Assembly (NCBI RefSeq): GCF_025457605.1
Contig: NZ_JAMZFY010000002.1
Span: forward strand, 248,001 to 312,000
Direction: 5' to 3'
DNA: 64,000 nt
From: Haloarcula laminariae
GTDB lineage: Archaea > Halobacteriota > Halobacteria > Halobacteriales > Haloarculaceae
This document shows, in pieces, positions 1-14,008 of the stretch. The position numbers were made by a program, and so were the translations under genes. The stretch's first letter is position 1, and the number at the start of each line of letters is the position of its first letter. A model generated the notes under the pieces. It was given only the letters and a program-made list of their open reading frames with translations, made no database searches and was not told the origin of the DNA.

Positions 1-523
1 CGTCCATGTCCAGTCCGTGTTCATCTGCCACGTCGTTGCGGTAGAACGCGGCGACCGGGCCGACGTCCCACGGGAGCGCGTACGTCCCCCCGTCCTTGGT
101 GAGCGGCCCCCACTTCCCGGAGACGAACTCGTCCCGGATACCGGCGTCGTCGATCCAGTCGCCGATGTCGCGCAGGCCGCCCGTGTCGACCCAGGCGGCC
201 GCGTCGACGCTCTCCATCGTGGCGACGGCCGGCGCGCCCGACCCCGAGAGAACACGCGACCGGAACTTGTCTTTCATGTTCGAGCGACCGAACTGCTCGA
301 CGGTGATGTCGCCGCCGTGTTCTTCCTCGTAGGGTTCGTCGACGGTGTCCAGGGCCTTCGCTGCCACGTCCCAGCTCCAGGCCGTGGCGCTCGAGGCCAT
401 ATCCCCGTTGGAACCGTCAGGGCCTGACTGGTCGCCCGTACCACAGCCGGCCAGGCCCGCGAGTCCAGCCGCACTCAGTTGTAAGACGCGTCGTCGGTCG
501 AGTCCGCTATTTGAGTCAGTCAT
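1..523 (-). CDS. ABC transporter sugar-binding lipoprotein, partial (3' end beyond window)
   Basis: Reading leftward from the ATG at 521-523, 174 codons are visible before the window edge. The N-terminus has a twin-arginine motif (DRRRVLQL) and a lipobox LAGC with Cys27, so the protein is probably exported folded and lipid-anchored outside the cell. The mature part reads like a family 1 extracellular solute-binding protein (WSWDVAAKALDTV, later YALPWDVGPVAAFYRND), the periplasmic-type component of sugar ABC importers. Permease and ATPase genes would be expected to the left, outside the window. A TATA-like ATTATTTAA lies at 551-559, and the IclR-type palindrome at 668-688 lies further upstream. 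The IclR and alpha-galactosidase neighbours suggest an alpha-galactoside or related sugar as substrate; that is inference. Confidence 0.85.
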   Translation of the reverse strand, partial: MTDSNSGLDRRRVLQLSAAGLAGLAGCGTGDQSGPDGSNGDMASSATAWSWDVAAKALDTVDEPYEEEHGGDITVEQFGRSNMKDKFRSRVLSGSGAPAVATMESVDAAAWVDTGGLRDIGDWIDDAGIRDEFVSGKWGPLTKDGGTYALPWDVGPVAAFYRNDVADEHGLDMD

Positions 524-667
524 CGGCGCTAGTCTCATCCATGATAGTACATTATTTAAGAGTTTTGCTAATTAGGTAGTGGGCAGGTAATCCCGACGCC
601 GTATGGCACTTTTCGTTAATTTGGGCCCGGTGATTATCGATATAGATAATATTTCTTATCATTCGTG

Positions 668-688
668 TTGTTCACCGATAGTGAACAA
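668..688. promoter_or_regulatory. Putative IclR operator, copy 1 (perfect 8-5-8 palindrome)
   Basis: TTGTTCAC-CGATA-GTGAACAA is a perfect inverted repeat with 8-bp arms and a 5-bp spacer. It lies next to an AT-rich leftward tract at 646-655, facing the sugar-binding protein gene. The same layout recurs at 796-816, 1616-1636 and 1717-1737, flanking the iclR gene. Confidence 0.7.
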
Positions 689-795
689 ACGGTCTGTCGA
701 CCCAGCGAAGATATGGGTGTATCGGGACATAAAGTCGCTCACGCGGCGTTTCTCGGGATTTCACCGAGTCTATGGGCACGGCGGCGGACAGCACT

Positions 796-816
796 CCGTT
801 CACTCTTGACGAACAA
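796..816. promoter_or_regulatory. Putative IclR operator, copy 2 (upstream of iclR)
   Basis: CCGTTCAC-TCTTG-ACGAACAA keeps the GTTC-n9-GAAC core with the same 8-5-8 geometry as copy 1, matching it at 12 of 16 arm positions. It abuts the TATA-like CAATTAT (815-821) and ends 28 bp before the iclR start codon, a position that suggests autoregulation. Confidence 0.6.
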
Positions 817-844
817 TTATCCCTCACGCCGCCTATAGCCGACT

Positions 845-1570
845 ATGGACGAGTCGTACCCAGTACAGGCGACCGCGACGACGATACGGGTCACCGAGGC
901 GCTGCTCGAGCGAAATCAGGCGGGCGTGACGGAACTCGCCACGGCGCTCGACCTCTCGAAGGGGGCCGTACACAACCATCTCCAGACGCTCCACCGCATG
1001 GAGTTCGTCGTCCGCGACGGCCGTCAGTACCGGGTCAGCTCCCGGTTTCTCGACGTCGCCTCGCGCGCCCGCGATGGGAACCCGGTGTACCGCGCCGCCC
1101 GGGGCGAGGTCGCCCAGCTCGCCCGCTCCAGCGGCGAGGTGGCATCGCTGGTCGTCGAGGAACACGGGAAGGCGGTGTACGTCCTGGTCACGGGCGGGGA
1201 GGACGGACAGACCGCCATACGCGAGGGCCGTCGGCGCCCGCTCTACACCGACGCCGCCGGGAAGGCGATTCTGGCACACCTGCCCGAAGACGAGGTCCGG
1301 GACCTCACCGGCACCATACCCGAGGACGAGACGGCGCTGTCCAGGGAACTGCGGACGGTCCGTGAACAGAGCGTCGCCTTCGACCGCGAGGAGCGGGCGG
1401 ACGGGACGCGGAGCGTGGCCGCTGCCGTGACGACCGAAGACGGGCGGCCGGTCGGCGCGGTGTGTGTCTCCGGGCCCGCCAATCGGATGAGCGGGAAACG
1501 GCTCGAAGAGGACATTACCGGCCTTGTTGTCAGCAGCGCGAATAGTATCGCAGTCGACCTATCGAAATAG
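845..1570 (+). CDS. IclR family transcriptional regulator
   Basis: This 241-residue protein has the two-domain IclR plan. Residues about 7-60 form a winged helix (LLERNQAGVTELATALDLS, then KGAVHNHLQTLHRMEFV). Residues about 75-238 form the ligand-binding domain (GEVASLVVEEHGKAVYV, LYTDAAGKAILAHL, GAVCVSGPANRM). It is a cytoplasmic DNA-binding protein that senses a small metabolite. The gene sits between a divergent sugar-binding protein and an alpha-galactosidase, and four matching palindromes surround it, so it most likely controls this locus and itself. Haloferax XacR is an IclR activator of pentose catabolism, but the ligand here is unknown. The TATA-like box at 815-821 is about 27 bp before the ATG, suggesting a leaderless mRNA. 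Confidence 0.9.
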   Translation: MDESYPVQATATTIRVTEALLERNQAGVTELATALDLSKGAVHNHLQTLHRMEFVVRDGRQYRVSSRFLDVASRARDGNPVYRAARGEVAQLARSSGEVASLVVEEHGKAVYVLVTGGEDGQTAIREGRRRPLYTDAAGKAILAHLPEDEVRDLTGTIPEDETALSRELRTVREQSVAFDREERADGTRSVAAAVTTEDGRPVGAVCVSGPANRMSGKRLEEDITGLVVSSANSIAVDLSK

Positions 1571-1615
1571 CTAGTTGTGTAGATATTTGCCGATATACGG
1601 CGGCCCACTGAAAGC

Positions 1616-1636
1616 CTGTTCAGCAGTTCTGAACGA
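1616..1636. promoter_or_regulatory. Putative IclR operator, copy 3
   Basis: CTGTTCAG-CAGTT-CTGAACGA has the 8-5-8 layout, with GTTCAG/CTGAAC as perfectly paired inner arms. A TATA-like GATATAAC follows at 1641-1648, pointing right toward the alpha-galactosidase gene. Confidence 0.6.
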
Positions 1637-1716
1637 AGCTGATATAACAATACTTGAGATGCCTACGGACACTCTAGCTAACGCTGTCGAACCCTATGAG
1701 ACGGACCCGGAGAAAA

Positions 1717-1737
1717 GCGTTCACGTATACTGAACGA
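1717..1737. promoter_or_regulatory. Putative IclR operator, copy 4
   Basis: GCGTTCAC-GTATA-CTGAACGA again has 8-bp half sites with a 5-bp spacer. An AT-rich tract (CGATTATTTT, 1741-1750) follows directly, as a TATA element would. It lies 113 bp before the alpha-galactosidase start. Confidence 0.6.
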
Positions 1738-1849
1738 ATTCGATTATTTTCCCGGCGAACGCTGATATCAGTCTGACTACGCAAATATCCGAAAACCGGA
1801 GGCATACGCCCTCCAAACAGCTATTACGGTTCGACTACGGTGGTGGCGT

Positions 1850-3988
1850 ATGGTTCAGGTCGACGTGGGCGGGACGGTCCTTCAGTTCGCGCCCGAGACG
1901 GCTCGCGTATCGCTCCGTGCGGACGGGACGACACTGGCGTCCGGCCGGGTCGTCGCCGAACTCGGCACCGACCGGTATCCGCGTACCGATAGCTATCACG
2001 TACAGACCGACGGGGACGGCGCGCGGGTGCGCTACGACGACGCCGCCGGGACGACGGTCCGCCTCGGCGAGGCGGCCAGAGGGGCCACCCTGACCGTGAG
2101 CGTGGCCAACGAAACCGAGACGCCGCGGTCGGTCGGTCGGCTGTGTCCGCTCGCGGCCGACGACCTGTCGTTCGGGCCGGAGACCCGGCTCTACCGGCAC
2201 GGCTACCAGTCGTGGACGCCGACGGCGACGCTCCCGGTCGAGGCGTCTTTCGCGCCGATCGAACCGGCCGACGTCCCGATGATGACCGACGTCGACGCGC
2301 CGCGGACGACGAGCCACTGCCACATCGGCCTGGCCGACGGCGAGCGCCGCCTGACGGCGGGGTTCCTCGACCACTCCGAGTACGTCACCCGATTCGACTA
2401 CGAGCGCGGGGACGGCGTCGAGTCGCTGACGGCGGTTTCCCCGGGCGACGGCGTCTCGCTGGCCCCGGGCGAGCGCGCGACCAGCGCGCCGCTGTGGGTC
2501 GACGCCGCCCGGCCGGTCGACGACGCGCTGGCCGCGCTGGCCGAGCGGACCGGCGAGCGGATGGACGCCCGCGTCGGCGAGTGGGTCCCGACGGGGTGGT
2601 GCTCGTGGTACCACTACTTCACCGAGGTGACCGCGGACGACGTCCGGTCGAACCTCGCCGAACTCGACGAGTGGGGGCTCCCGGTGGACCTGGTCCAGCT
2701 CGACGACGGCTACCAGACCGCCTTCGGGGACTGGCGAACGCTGGCCGATGGGTTCGAAGATATGGCGGCGCTGGTGGGGGACGTCCGCGACGGGGACTAC
2801 ACGCCCGGGCTCTGGCTCGCGCCGTTTTTCGTCCAGGAGGACGCCGACCTCGTGGCGTCTCACCCCGAGTGGCTCGTCACCGACGGCGACGGTGAGTTCG
2901 TCTCGGCCGGCGAGCGCCACGGCGAGATGTACGGGCTGGACCTGACCCACCCCGAGGTGCAGACGTGGCTCCGGGAGACGTTTCGGACTATCGTCGACGA
3001 GTGGGGGTTCGAGTACCTCAAACTCGATTTCCTCTACGCCGGGGCGTTGCCCGGCGAGCGGTTCGCCGACGTGACGCGGGCCGAGGCCTACCGCGAAGGG
3101 CTGGCGGCGATTCGGGAGGCCGTCGGCGAGGAGACGTACATCCTGGGCTGTGGGGCCCCGCAGGGCCAGAGCGTCGGCCTCGTCGACTCCATGCGCGTCG
3201 GTCCCGACACGGCCGAGTACTGGGCCCGCGAGGGCGAGTCCGATAGCGAGCCGGCTCACGAGAACGCTATCCGGAACGTACTCAACCGTGATTACCTCCA
3301 CCGGCGGTGGTGGGTCAACGACCCGGACTGTCAGCTCGTCCGGGAGACGACCGAGCTGTCGCCGGCCGAGCGGGAGTCGTTCGCGACGCTGGTCGCACTG
3401 ACCGGCGGCGCGAACGTGTTCAGCGATAGGATAGCCGACATCGGCGCCGACACCCGCTCCCTACTGGAACGCTCGCTCCCACCGGTACGGGCGGGCGCGG
3501 TCGAGGGCGTCGGCCGGACGGAGTTCCCCGACAGACTCGTCTGTGAGCGGGCGGCCGACGGCGGCCGCGCGGTCGCGCTGTTCAACTGGACCGACTCCCC
3601 CGAGACGCTGTCGCTGTCGCTGACCGACGACGAGCGCGGCTGGGACGCGTTCGAGGGCGAGGCCGTCCCCGCCGGCGGGACGGTCGAGCGGACGGTCCCG
3701 GCCCACGGCTGTCTCCTCGTCCACGTCGCGCCCGCGAGCGACCGCCCCCACCTGCTCGGCGCCGACCACCTCGCCGGCCTGGGCTCGCGCCTGGAGCGGG
3801 TCGCCTGGAGCGCCGACGGCGCGGCGGGACAGCTCTCTCTCACAGTCGACGCGGCGACGCCGCAGTCGGTCACGGTCGCGGTCCCCGACGGCTGGACCCG
3901 CGCCGGCGTCGACGGTGCGGGCGCGGCGGACACGTGTACGGTCACGGTCGGGCCGGGGCCCGCGACGCTCTCCTTCGAGCGGAGCTGA
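1850..3988 (+). CDS. Alpha-galactosidase, glycoside hydrolase family 36
   Basis: A 712-residue cytoplasmic enzyme (no signal peptide) predicted to release terminal alpha-galactose from galactosides such as melibiose or raffinose. It follows the GH36 plan: an N-terminal beta-sandwich (1-240), a TIM barrel (about 245-560) and a C-terminal beta domain. Visible signatures are WCSWYHYF, VDLVQLDDGYQ, GLWLAPF, KLDFLYAG with the likely nucleophile Asp393, and SMRVGPDT with the likely acid/base Asp453. The length is normal for the family. The ATG was chosen because a TATA-like sequence lies at 1820-1827, about 27 bp upstream, and two operator palindromes precede it. The KDG kinase follows downstream on the same strand. 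Exact substrate specificity cannot be read from the sequence. Confidence 0.9.
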   Translation: MVQVDVGGTVLQFAPETARVSLRADGTTLASGRVVAELGTDRYPRTDSYHVQTDGDGARVRYDDAAGTTVRLGEAARGATLTVSVANETETPRSVGRLCPLAADDLSFGPETRLYRHGYQSWTPTATLPVEASFAPIEPADVPMMTDVDAPRTTSHCHIGLADGERRLTAGFLDHSEYVTRFDYERGDGVESLTAVSPGDGVSLAPGERATSAPLWVDAARPVDDALAALAERTGERMDARVGEWVPTGWCSWYHYFTEVTADDVRSNLAELDEWGLPVDLVQLDDGYQTAFGDWRTLADGFEDMAALVGDVRDGDYTPGLWLAPFFVQEDADLVASHPEWLVTDGDGEFVSAGERHGEMYGLDLTHPEVQTWLRETFRTIVDEWGFEYLKLDFLYAGALPGERFADVTRAEAYREGLAAIREAVGEETYILGCGAPQGQSVGLVDSMRVGPDTAEYWAREGESDSEPAHENAIRNVLNRDYLHRRWWVNDPDCQLVRETTELSPAERESFATLVALTGGANVFSDRIADIGADTRSLLERSLPPVRAGAVEGVGRTEFPDRLVCERAADGGRAVALFNWTDSPETLSLSLTDDERGWDAFEGEAVPAGGTVERTVPAHGCLLVHVAPASDRPHLLGADHLAGLGSRLERVAWSADGAAGQLSLTVDAATPQSVTVAVPDGWTRAGVDGAGAADTCTVTVGPGPATLSFERS

Positions 3989-5087: not shown

Positions 5088-5738
5088 TCAGTTCCGCGCG
5101 TCTTCGACGGCCCGGACGAACGCGGCCGCCGACTCGCGGACGCCGTCCATGTCGCCGTTCTCGATGGCCTCGTAGTCGACCAGCGCCGAGCCGGCGCCGA
5201 CGGCCATCGCGCCGGCGTCGAAGTAGCCGGCGACGTTGTCCGTCGAGACCCCGCCGGTCGGCATGATGGGCACGTCGCCCAGCGGGCCCTGCAGCGCGCC
5301 GACGTGGTCCGGACCGACGGTCGACGCGGGGAACATCTTCAGCACGTCCGCGCCTGCGGCCATCGCCCGGTCGGCCTCGGTCGGCGTCATCACGCCGGGG
5401 ATGGCGACGACGCGCTCCCGATTGCACACCTCGATGACCTCTTCGCTGACGTTCGGGGCCAGCACGAACTCCGCCCCGGCTTCGATGACGTTTCGGGCGG
5501 TCGCGGCGTCCCGAACCGTTCCGGCACCGACGACCGCGTCGGTGTCGGCCAGCGCCCGGTCCACGGCGGCGATTAGCTCCGAGCACCGCTTCGCGTCCGC
5601 GGTCAGTTCCAGCGCGGAGACGCCGCCCTCGTGGATTGCACGCGCGACTTCGACCACGTCGTCCTCGGGGATATCACGCATAACGGCGACCACGCCGCTA
5701 TCGACGATACGTTCCATTACGTGCTGTTTAGTCGGCAC
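5088..5738 (-). CDS. 2-dehydro-3-deoxy-phosphogluconate (KDPG) aldolase, class I
   Basis: From the GTG at 5738 the protein has 216 residues; a start at 5759 would add 7. I prefer the GTG because TATA-like sequence lies about 28 bp before it and because the active-site residues then match E. coli Eda numbering closely: Glu44 in ALELT and the Schiff-base Lys134 in LKMFPASTVGP. Other motifs are GAGTVRDA, APNVSEEV, IPGVMTPTEA and PTGGVSTDNV. It cleaves KDPG (or the galactonate epimer) to pyruvate and glyceraldehyde 3-phosphate. It is a bacterial-type KDPG aldolase, known in haloarchaea, and faces the kinase gene convergently 18 bp away, consistent with consecutive steps. Confidence 0.9.
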   Translation of the reverse strand: MPTKQHVMERIVDSGVVAVMRDIPEDDVVEVARAIHEGGVSALELTADAKRCSELIAAVDRALADTDAVVGAGTVRDAATARNVIEAGAEFVLAPNVSEEVIEVCNRERVVAIPGVMTPTEADRAMAAGADVLKMFPASTVGPDHVGALQGPLGDVPIMPTGGVSTDNVAGYFDAGAMAVGAGSALVDYEAIENGDMDGVRESAAAFVRAVEDARN

Positions 5739-5848
5739 GTCTGGGCGGATGCGTAGCAACAGTAAAGCTTCCCCGCTCTCCGCCTACAGGGGCCCTGTCG
5801 GCCCGTACCGTCGGTGTGGCGCCCCGTACTCGGCGGCGATGGCCCGTT

Positions 5849-10046: not shown

Positions 10047-13000
10047 TCAGGTCGCTGTCTCACCCGGGGTGAACACCCGCGCGAACACCTTCCGCTGGGC
10101 CTTCCGCATGTGGCTGTGGAACGTCGCCGCGGCGATGTCCAGCGACGAGGCGACCTGCTCGCCCGAGGCGGCTCGCGGCCACTCGAAGAACCCGGCGTGG
10201 TACGCGGTCTCCAGCACCGTTCGCTGCCGGTCCGTCAGGTCGGCGAGCAGTTCGCGCTGCATCCTGTCGCTTGCGTCCCGTCGCCTGGTTATCTGCTGGC
10301 GTTTGCGTAGCTGGACCGTGGGGTAGGCGCTCTCGAGCCGCTCGACGACCTGGCGAACGTCGACGCTCGTCGGGATGTGGACCGTCATCCGGTAGTCGTC
10401 GTCCTCGATGACCGCCGCTTCGACCGAGCCGCCGACCGAGGCGATGGTCGAGAACGCCGGCGGCGCCGACAGCAGGAGTTCGAACGGCTGCTCGGCCCCG
10501 GTCCCGTCCTGTACGGTGAGGCGCTCCCAGTGGGGCACCCTGTCGACGAGCGACCGCAGGTAGTCGACCGAGTCGTCCGTCACGCTGCCGTAGACGATGA
10601 ACTCGTCGTCGCCGAGCGATATCGAGTGGCGGAGCCGCGCCGCCCCAGACGGCTGGCTGTCGACACCAAACGCCTCGGAGACGTCCGGCACGAGGAAGTG
10701 GAGTTCCACCATCTCGTCGCTCATCAGCGCCTGCTTTCGCTCCGTCGCCGCGATGGCGTGGCCGACGATGTCGCCGAGCTGTTCGATGACCGCCCCCTCC
10801 TGGCCGGCGAAGGCGTTCGGGCGGGCGGCGTAGACGTTCAGGGTCCCGTACATCGTCCCCTCGTGGCTGATGGGGATGGCGGCCGACGACTGGAAGCCGT
10901 ACTGTTCGACGTGGTCCCGCCACGGGTCGTAGCTGGGGTCGGACCCGACCGCTGTGGTCGCCTGCATCTCGCCCGTCAGGAAGGCCCGCCCCGTCGCGCC
11001 CCCGCTCCGCTCGTCGTCGGGGTCGACCGAAATGACGGTCTCGTCGAGGTACCCCTCGATGCCCGCCTCGGTTCGGACGGCGACGGTCTCCGAGGGGGCG
11101 TCGACTTCGCCGACCCAGGCCAGCACGTACGACTCCGAGTCGACGAGATACTCACACACCGTCGCTTCGATTTCCTCGCGCGAGGACTGGTCGATGACGG
11201 CGGCCGTCACCCCGCGGACGACCTCGTTGAGGCTGTTGAGCGCGGCCAGCTGTTCGCGCTGGCGTTCGAGCTCCCGCTGGCGTTCGACGTGGTCCGTGAT
11301 GTCCCGGACGACGCCGACACGCTCCGGGCCGGTGGCCGTCGCGAGCGTGTTGAACCTGGCCTCGGTCCGGATAGTGGTTCCGTCCGGGCGCACCACCGAC
11401 GTCTCGATGCTGCCGGTCTCGCGCTCGCCCACCCGAATCTCGGCGTCGATTTCTCTGGCCCGCTCGATGACCGACGCGTCGAGGATGTCCGCCTCGACGA
11501 GCGACTCGACGGTCCGGCCGACGAGCTCCGCCGCCGGGACGCCGACCAGGTCGCCGTAGGCGTCGTTGACGAAGGTGAACTCGCCGTCCTCGGCGACGGT
11601 GTAGATGCCGTCCTCGACGGCCTCGACGATGCCCTCGTAGCGTCTGAGTTCCCGCTCGCGCTCGCGGCGCTCGGTCACGTCCCGGACGACGCCGACGCTC
11701 CCGGACCCCGCCCGCCCGGGGTCGAGCAGGGCGAATCGCGCCTCGACGGGGACCGTCCCGCCGTCGGCGGTGGTGAGTTCGGTCGCCAGGGTCGCGACCG
11801 ATTCCTCGTCGCTCCGGAGTTCCTCGCGCAGTCGGTCACCGCTGTCGAGTGCCGACTCCCCGGCGACCGTCGACACGTGGGCCCCCAGCAGTTCGTCGCG
11901 GTCGTACCCCGTCAGTTCGCAGTAGGCCTCGTTGACGAGGACGAACTCGCGGGCCTCGTCGATGACGTAGACGCCGTCGCCGATGGTCTCGATGGCGAGT
12001 TCGTACTGTTCGAGCTCCTGTTCGCGCTCGCGGCGCTCGGTGACGTCGCGGAAGTACACCGACAGCCCGCTCTCGGAGGGGTACGCCGACACCTCGAACC
12101 AGGTCGAGAGCGGCGGGTAGTACTCCTCGAAGGTGACCGACTCCTGTGTCGACACCGCCCGCTCGTACTGCTCCTGAAAGGCGGTGTCGACGGCCTCGGG
12201 GAAGGCCTCCCAGAGACTGCGCCCGAGCAGTTCGCCGACCGACTGGTCCAGTAGGGCCGTCGCCTGCTCGTTGGCGTGGACGAACCGCCACTCCTCGTCG
12301 ACGGCGAAGAAGGCGTCGTCGATGCGACCGAACACCTCGCGCAGTTCGTGGTCGAGTTCGTCGCGCTGGCGCTCCAGCTCCCGCATGGTCAGTTTGAGTT
12401 CCGTGATGTCCTCGCCGACGACGATGACGCGCTCCAGGGCGCCGGACTCGTCGGTGAGCGGCGTCGCGCTGAGCCGTACCCACCGGCGTTCGCCGTCGGG
12501 CGTGTCGTGGCCCACGAGCCGGTCGGTGGCCGGTTCCCCGGTCTCCAGCACGATGTTGACGGGGTGGTCCGCGGCGGGCAGGGGGCCTCCGTCGGCGTCG
12601 TAGAACGCTTTGTCGGCCGGGCTAAACGTCGAATCCTCGCTGACGCCGAGCATCTCCCGGCTCTCGGCGTTCATGCGGTCCAACGAGCCGTCGGCGTCGA
12701 AGACAGCCAGCCGGACCGGCGCGGTCTCGAACAGCCGCGCCGTGAGGTCCCGCTCGCGGCGCAGCGCCTCCTCGCGCTCGCGGCGCTCGGTCATGTCGCG
12801 GGTAATCTTCGCGTACCCCTCCAGCGTCCCGTCGTCGTCCCGGATGGCCGTGATGGTCACGTTCGCCCAGAACCGGGACCCGTCGGCGTGCAGGCGCCAC
12901 CCCTCGTCCTCGACGGCCCCCGCCTCGGCCGCGGCCGCCAGGTTCGCCTCGGGCACGCCCGCGGCGCGGTCCTCGGGGGTGTAGAACGTCCCGACGTGTT

Positions 13001-13781
13001 CGCCCAGAATCTCGGCGGCGTCGTACCCCTTGATGCGCTCGGCGCCGGCGTTCCACGTCCGGACGCGGCCGGTCGCGTCGAGCTTGAAGATGGCGTACTC
13101 CTCGACGGCGGTCACGAGCGAGTCGAACTGCCGCTCCCGCCGCTCGTGGGCCCGCCGGAGACGCGCCCGCTCGGTGACGTCCTCGTACAGGTCGACGCGG
13201 CCGCCGGCGACGACCCCGGTCTCGACCGGTTCGCTGTGGTGTTCGACCCGCCGCGCCTCGCGGCCGTCCGCGGCCGTCACCTGCCACTCGGAGCGCTCGC
13301 CGGTGTCGTCGGGCGCGAGCGCTCGTTCGGCGAACGCCCCGCCGTCCTCGACGGTCGGCGCGATGACTTCCTCGACCAGCGTCCGGTAGCTCGTCCCGAG
13401 GGCGCTGTCGTGGTCGAACCCGAAGTATCGCTCGGCGGCGTCGTTCACCCACACGACGTGGTCCCCCGAGTCCCGGACGACCACGCCCACCCCCGTCCGG
13501 TCAAGTACGTCCGCCGCGATGGAGCTGACGACTGCCGGCCAGTCCCCGGCGGAGCCCCCGCCGGCCGTGGCCGGGGCCGGTCGCCACCAGACGCGCCCGC
13601 TCGCGCCGACCTTCTTCGTCTCCAGTCGGCCGTGTTCGACCAGTCGCTCCAGGCGCTCGTACGTGCTCCGCCGCCCCAGTCCGACCCGCTCTGCGACCTC
13701 GCTCGTGGCGAGGGGCGCCCCGGCGACGTCGAACAGCGCGAGCGTCTCCCGGAGCGTCTCGGTCAACGGTTGGCCTCTCAT
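10047..13781 (-). CDS. Multi-PAS/GAF sensor with N-terminal winged helix and C-terminal HTH_10 (Bat-like regulator)
   Basis: A very long (about 1244-residue) cytoplasmic one-component regulator. Residues about 5-70 form a winged helix (SEVAERVGLGRRSTYERLER, then WWRP). Six PAS-type modules follow (about 75-190, 215-335, 345-465, 485-595, 605-715 and 725-840), then a GAF domain (about 860-1010), a Bat-associated region beginning near MSDEMVELHFLVPD, and a C-terminal HTH_10 domain (LTDRQRTVLETAYHAGFFEW, TFHSHMRKAQRK). There is no kinase domain. The family includes the bacterioopsin activator Bat of Halobacterium, which responds to redox or light. The second Met is taken as start. No target is evident; the convergent halocyanin is the nearest gene. 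Confidence 0.87.
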   Translation of the reverse strand: MRGQPLTETLRETLALFDVAGAPLATSEVAERVGLGRRSTYERLERLVEHGRLETKKVGASGRVWWRPAPATAGGGSAGDWPAVVSSIAADVLDRTGVGVVVRDSGDHVVWVNDAAERYFGFDHDSALGTSYRTLVEEVIAPTVEDGGAFAERALAPDDTGERSEWQVTAADGREARRVEHHSEPVETGVVAGGRVDLYEDVTERARLRRAHERRERQFDSLVTAVEEYAIFKLDATGRVRTWNAGAERIKGYDAAEILGEHVGTFYTPEDRAAGVPEANLAAAAEAGAVEDEGWRLHADGSRFWANVTITAIRDDDGTLEGYAKITRDMTERREREEALRRERDLTARLFETAPVRLAVFDADGSLDRMNAESREMLGVSEDSTFSPADKAFYDADGGPLPAADHPVNIVLETGEPATDRLVGHDTPDGERRWVRLSATPLTDESGALERVIVVGEDITELKLTMRELERQRDELDHELREVFGRIDDAFFAVDEEWRFVHANEQATALLDQSVGELLGRSLWEAFPEAVDTAFQEQYERAVSTQESVTFEEYYPPLSTWFEVSAYPSESGLSVYFRDVTERREREQELEQYELAIETIGDGVYVIDEAREFVLVNEAYCELTGYDRDELLGAHVSTVAGESALDSGDRLREELRSDEESVATLATELTTADGGTVPVEARFALLDPGRAGSGSVGVVRDVTERRERERELRRYEGIVEAVEDGIYTVAEDGEFTFVNDAYGDLVGVPAAELVGRTVESLVEADILDASVIERAREIDAEIRVGERETGSIETSVVRPDGTTIRTEARFNTLATATGPERVGVVRDITDHVERQRELERQREQLAALNSLNEVVRGVTAAVIDQSSREEIEATVCEYLVDSESYVLAWVGEVDAPSETVAVRTEAGIEGYLDETVISVDPDDERSGGATGRAFLTGEMQATTAVGSDPSYDPWRDHVEQYGFQSSAAIPISHEGTMYGTLNVYAARPNAFAGQEGAVIEQLGDIVGHAIAATERKQALMSDEMVELHFLVPDVSEAFGVDSQPSGAARLRHSISLGDDEFIVYGSVTDDSVDYLRSLVDRVPHWERLTVQDGTGAEQPFELLLSAPPAFSTIASVGGSVEAAVIEDDDYRMTVHIPTSVDVRQVVERLESAYPTVQLRKRQQITRRRDASDRMQRELLADLTDRQRTVLETAYHAGFFEWPRAASGEQVASSLDIAAATFHSHMRKAQRKVFARVFTPGETAT

Positions 13782-14008
13782 CATGAAACAAATGTTACTG
13801 CTGCGACAAGTACTCTCCGGCGACGGAGGCCACGCAGCCGGTGTCTCCGGGTACGGAACTGGCGTGCAACGGTAACCAAGTTCCTGTCATCCGAACGTAA
13901 GTACGGTGGACCGACCGGCCGGCGCGCCGCCGCGGCCCCCTAGTATCTTCTAGGCTACCCTTAGGCCCGCGGCGGCCTTCGATAGAGGTACGGTAAACAC
14001 ATCACACC

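Follow-up and report, generated by a model that had tools for sequence, protein, structure and literature searches.

Four operator-like palindromes bracket an iclR gene at a galactoside locus of Haloarcula laminariae and recur in related haloarchaea

The 64-kb window (the whole stretch of Haloarcula laminariae DNA that was analyzed) opens in a galactoside gene cluster in which a gene for an IclR-family regulator lies between two pairs of palindromes. The features are listed below; start codons and TATA boxes are predicted from the sequence.

1..523, minus strand: 5' part of the solute-binding lipoprotein gene, first in the transporter-dgoD-SDR-GH42 operon and running beyond the window
551..572, minus strand: putative transporter-operon core promoter, CAAAA and then CTTAAATAA, conserved and at a fixed distance from U1
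668..688, no strand: U1, operator-like palindrome TTGTTCACCGATAGTGAACAA, 110 bp from the transporter-operon TATA box
796..816, no strand: U2, palindrome CCGTTCACTCTTGACGAACAA, with one core mismatch, abutting the iclR TATA-like tract
815..822, plus strand: putative iclR TATA box AATTATCC, read from the sequence, about 27 bp 5' of the start codon
845..1570, plus strand: iclR, 241 aa, with HTH_IclR and IclR_C domains
1616..1636, no strand: D1, palindrome CTGTTCAGCAGTTCTGAACGA, 3' of the iclR stop codon
1717..1737, no strand: D2, palindrome GCGTTCACGTATACTGAACGA, 101 bp from D1
1813..1827, plus strand: putative GH36 core promoter CCAAACAGCTATTAC, 85 bp past D2, with the start codon 29 bp further on
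1850..3988, plus strand: GH36-type alpha-galactosidase gene, 712 aa
4116..5069, plus strand: bifunctional KDG/KDGal kinase gene (NCBIfam NF041332, above cut-off)
5088..5759, minus strand: KDPG/KDPGal aldolase gene (Pfam PF01081, TIGR01182)

The minus-strand operon, most of which lies outside the window, encodes the solute-binding lipoprotein, two permeases, an ATPase, a galactonate dehydratase 95% identical to annotated dgoD, a short-chain dehydrogenase, and a GH42 beta-galactosidase. The window's GH36 protein is 71% identical to a Haloarcula sinaiiensis protein annotated as GH36, and the closest named locus is on plasmid pHsi117 of that species. Together these genes make up a complete DeLey-Doudoroff route for alpha- and beta-galactosides, with the substrates of the dehydrogenase and the transporter deduced from their genomic context. 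A first reading of the sequence alone (the sequence-only reading) had placed an IclR regulon at an alpha-galactosidase locus; an iclR gene with four operator-like palindromes does lie at a galactoside locus, but the description is too narrow, as the locus holds the whole pathway, with the beta-galactosidase, dehydrogenase, and galactonate dehydratase outside the window. Further along the window, a 1,245-aa frame on the minus strand (10047-13784) resembles, by eye, a sensor with several PAS domains that ends in a helix-turn-helix of the bacterio-opsin-activator type.

By domain content the regulator is an ordinary IclR protein, with an N-terminal helix-turn-helix (PF09339, E value of 1e-8) and a C-terminal effector domain (PF01614, E value of 3.8e-24), both above cut-off. 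A TATA-like tract occupies the matching place before iclR in most relatives, and the position of the putative TATA box, about 27 bp before the start codon, suggests a leaderless transcript.

The four palindromes stand letter for letter where the sequence-only reading had placed them, and all contain GTTC-n9-GAAC. Within the 64-kb window, the core GTTCA-N7-TGAAC was matched five times with at most one mismatch versus 0.61 matches expected, a count reached by none of 100 shuffled windows. The same reading had proposed a genome-wide scan for the motif. Across the 3.69 Mb of the genome, the exact core has three occurrences, each of them inside 1.07 kb of the iclR locus, whereas about 0.7 matches are expected from base composition. 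These counts are from pattern searches, and when one mismatch is allowed the number rises to 73 genome-wide, so that a lone one-mismatch site elsewhere means little and is mostly background; this unspecific search was not used to propose further targets. The 73 loose matches are what might favor a fortuitous cluster of palindromes. Against it stand the probability of about 1e-8 for three exact matches in one 1.07-kb stretch and the conservation of fixed positions in 17 loci described below, which make chance a negligible explanation.

Several minor observations concern the motif itself. Contig 4 of the genome contains two copies of the one-mismatch site GCTCACATATGATGAAC (C4:2263-2279 and C4:87149-87165), probably within a repeated element. 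A 24-codon open frame read by eye at window positions 1659-1733 (ATG CCT ACG ... TAC TGA) begins just past D1 and ends inside D2, and is probably due to chance. Among viral contigs, seven match the exact two-site pattern.

A profile search for the IclR protein in 392 genomes of the order found 16 close relatives, including the window's own, separated from the remaining hits by a gap in score. Together with the H. sinaiiensis plasmid, these gave 17 orthologous loci from several families. Sites were scored with a matrix trained on the upstream sites only, each locus being scored with itself left out. U1 was found in all 17 loci, at -175 to -186 from the iclR start, and so was U2, at -47 to -51. 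Two sites past the iclR stop codon were found in 16 of the 17, the remaining locus (L106) having one. In 12 of the 16 loci with a downstream pair, the per-position chance was below 5e-5 for both sites; in the other four (L097, L098, L101, and L063), one downstream site was weaker (1e-4 to 4e-4) and yet lay at the expected spacing. The operator consensus across the loci is TCGTTCACCAATGGTGAACGA.

The DNA between the sites is not similarly maintained. Median identity was 60% for the upstream spacers (59% when shuffled) and 63% for the downstream spacers (62% when shuffled), and three locus pairs exceeded the shuffled maximum in their downstream spacers, which may be due to a short unmasked stretch. 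As the spacers are at shuffled-level identity and the distances are kept, conservation applies to the sites and their distances and not to the entire region. Being related, the 17 loci do not count as independent cases; a safer count is the three operator lineages seen in the tree, which gave no support for a single origin of the three.

The palindromes also keep company with one particular regulator. The genome has eight other iclR genes, none with a core site within 1.5 kb, and no sites were seen near dgoD in three clusters (L087, L088, and L091) where no relative of the window's IclR was found. Judged by these sequence comparisons, the sites travel with orthologues of the window's IclR. This bears on the idea that a different regulator, another IclR or a TrmB-like protein, reads the sites while the adjacent IclR reads something else. 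Many haloarchaea do have numerous IclR paralogues, and one-mismatch sites are common in the genome; but in 17 loci the sites accompany an orthologue of this IclR, they are missing near the eight paralogues, and they have no exact copy elsewhere in the genome, and we regard a different reader as improbable.

The sites are further arranged in a fixed geometry. The distance between U1 and U2 is 128 to 135 bp across the 17 loci, and D1 and D2 lie 98 to 103 bp apart in ten loci; in six others their spacing is exactly 38 bp. The transporter-operon core promoter, recognized as a CCAAA-like element followed by TTAAGT or TTAAAT, lies 107 to 111 bp from U1 in nine loci and 87 to 89 bp from it in six; two of the 17 loci gave no match to this pattern. 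The three length changes between spacing classes, of about 22, 11, and 60 to 65 bp, are near whole helix turns, which is no more than suggestive, given the few independent changes. Between the upstream and the downstream pairs, no helix phasing was found (Rayleigh p of 0.5 to 1), and the low Rayleigh p obtained for D1-D2 carries no independent weight, as it reflects just two spacing classes in related lineages.

The most contested point is what the downstream pair does. One reading takes all four palindromes as independent, promoter-proximal operators of the same IclR that neither cooperate nor loop, D1 and D2 controlling whichever gene follows. It draws support from three Halobellus-type loci, where the downstream pair begins at +16, +6, or +97 from the iclR stop codon and the TATA-like element of the following aldolase gene nonetheless lies 34 bp from D2 and 72 bp from D1 in all three. 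In the window's genus, the distances of D1 and D2 to the GH36 TATA box are similarly fixed (73 to 74 bp from D2 in three relatives and 85 bp in the window), and the GH36 core-promoter element CCAAACAGCTATTAC is identical in three relatives. Opposed to it are the loci in which no catabolic gene directly follows the pair (L095 to L100, L104, L109, and L110): the next gene there is convergent or unrelated, and yet the internal D1-D2 spacing is unchanged. On balance we hold independent action to be a serious contender at somewhat under even odds.

The sequence-only reading had the sites flanking iclR and facing the lipoprotein and GH36 genes. Two do lie 5' and two 3' of iclR, but D1 and D2 are not basically a GH36 promoter element. 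GH36 lies 3' of iclR only in the window's genus and elsewhere, where found, is with the transporter operon. As the pair persists where GH36 sits elsewhere, it probably predates the arrival of GH36 behind iclR, and as it is kept where no catabolic gene adjoins it, it appears to have a function independent of such a neighbor. The TATA-like tract claimed for every palindrome was confirmed for all four in the window and for U2 in nearly all relatives, but not for the D1/D2 pair in most relatives, so simple promoter control does not explain the role of the pair.

The palindromes might instead act as RNA hairpins, that is, as terminators or stability elements rather than as DNA operators. A short stem is possible at each of them, and D1 and D2 would fall in the iclR 3' untranslated region. 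U1 and U2, in contrast, lie upstream of putative promoters and hence outside the main transcripts, and half-site changes often break the pairing (an A-C mismatch in the window's U2; GTTC versus GTTT in D1 of L105), so that DNA half-sites fit better; we consider the hairpin explanation highly improbable.

IclR activators are known from haloarchaea for xylose/arabinose, rhamnose, galactose, and sugar alcohols, XacR, GacR, RhcR, and MscR being activators of sugar catabolism (PMC11519228). "Undescribed," as the switch had been called, is thus too strong for its kind. For the four-operator bracket itself, no description was found in the literature searched, in which the original XacR and GacR studies figured only as citations. 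XacR (HVO_B0040) of Haloferax volcanii is an IclR-family protein (Johnsen et al. 2015, cited in PMC10448506 and PMC6085418) needed for activation of xacE (PMC10448506), and a negative semi-palindromic element is described in the xacR promoter (PMC6085418). It resembles the window's system in being a haloarchaeal IclR beside a sugar pathway with a palindromic or semi-palindromic element in its own promoter. However, that element lies over the WW motif 3' of the TATA box whereas the window's U2 lies just 5' of it, and the sugars are other than galactosides. At the gfo6 locus of Haloarcula hispanica, no annotated IclR gene was found nearby.

GacR of Haloferax volcanii is an IclR activator of the DeLey-Doudoroff galactose genes (Tastensen et al. 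2020, cited in PMC11519228). Its Haloferax lucentense counterpart lies beside dgoD, and a single palindrome of similar type, TCGTTCACTAACTGTTAACAA, precedes its start at a short distance; neither an upstream partner site nor a downstream pair was seen at that locus. The Haloferax IclR next to dgoD is only 40% identical to the window's IclR, and in the tree the GacR-type protein stands on a long branch outside the three operator lineages, with unsure placement. The GacR cluster has a Gfo6-type dehydrogenase and a PepT-type transporter, whereas the window's cluster has an SDR and a CUT1-like transporter with a MalK-type ATPase. MscR of Haloarcula hispanica, also an IclR activator beside a CUT1 transporter cluster and likewise from the Haloarcula group, differs in serving mannitol and sorbitol rather than galactosides, and no operator for it was found in the passages of PMC11519228 consulted.

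In the reading we prefer, at a probability of roughly 0.72, the adjacent IclR recognizes the four palindromes as its operators, keeping its own gene in check and switching the catabolic promoters in a manner close to that of XacR and GacR. The device would probably be read by that IclR itself, the protein encoded between the palindromes binding all four. At U2, where it would touch its own TATA box, it would limit iclR transcription, a self-repression suggested by the position of U2 together with the negative element of xacR. From U1, it would switch on the transporter-dgoD-SDR-GH42 operon, whose core promoter lies at a fixed distance, in response to a galactoside-derived ligand, and in the window's lineage it may likewise switch on GH36 from D1 and D2. 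The sign and the ligand of this control are modeled on XacR, GacR, RhcR, and MscR: since haloarchaeal IclR proteins activate sugar catabolism and xacR carries a negative element, activation combined with self-repression is the likeliest sign. Counting against this reading, the distance from U1 to the TATA box is unusually long by the standard of classical archaeal activators.

The fixed spacings further suggest, as the least certain step of the proposed mechanism, that the two operator pairs probably work together, IclR dimers assembling into a higher-order complex. A DNA loop enclosing the regulator gene is a plausible extension of this idea. In its full form, in which IclR bridges both pairs into a looped, helix-phased complex that encloses its own gene and thereby sets its own level and that of the divergent catabolic promoters, we consider it rather unlikely. 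A literature search for looping by IclR proteins returned no paper.

If true, the looping reading would describe a conserved archaeal DNA-looping switch with the regulator gene enclosed. Action at a distance by archaeal sugar regulators already has one puzzling case: a Haloferax xylose promoter needs an element 250 to 750 bp upstream for repression and full activation, by a mechanism left unexplained (PMC10448506). The present set adds 17 natural loci whose distal operators stand at fixed spacings that can be counted, which makes looping and phase dependence directly testable by moving or deleting sites. The recurrence of the four-site layout with its spacings in distant haloarchaea marks it as a real, testable candidate control device for galactoside use. 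The consensus can be used to annotate a group of haloarchaeal IclR regulators, and the locus supplies a candidate galactoside-inducible promoter.

Similar arrangements occur beyond the 17 loci. In a sister group (L114, L117, L118, and L121, the last being a Haloprofundus salinisoli locus adjoining dgoD-SDR), iclR is bracketed by operator-like sites at about -150, -46, and +2, so that regulator genes enclosed in this way may extend beyond the clade of the window's IclR. A further sister group (L111, L112, L113, L115, and L123) has a strong iclR site at -57/-58 and a weaker one 130 to 133 bp upstream of it, a spacing like that of U1 and U2. Finally, the Halobaculum marinum plasmid NZ_CP119991 (G358 C3; L090 1-560 and L137) holds two copies of the 5' part of iclR together with the operator pair that precedes it: the exact sites at C3:407/539 adjoin a short remnant of iclR, and those at C3:279413/279546 a full iclR gene.
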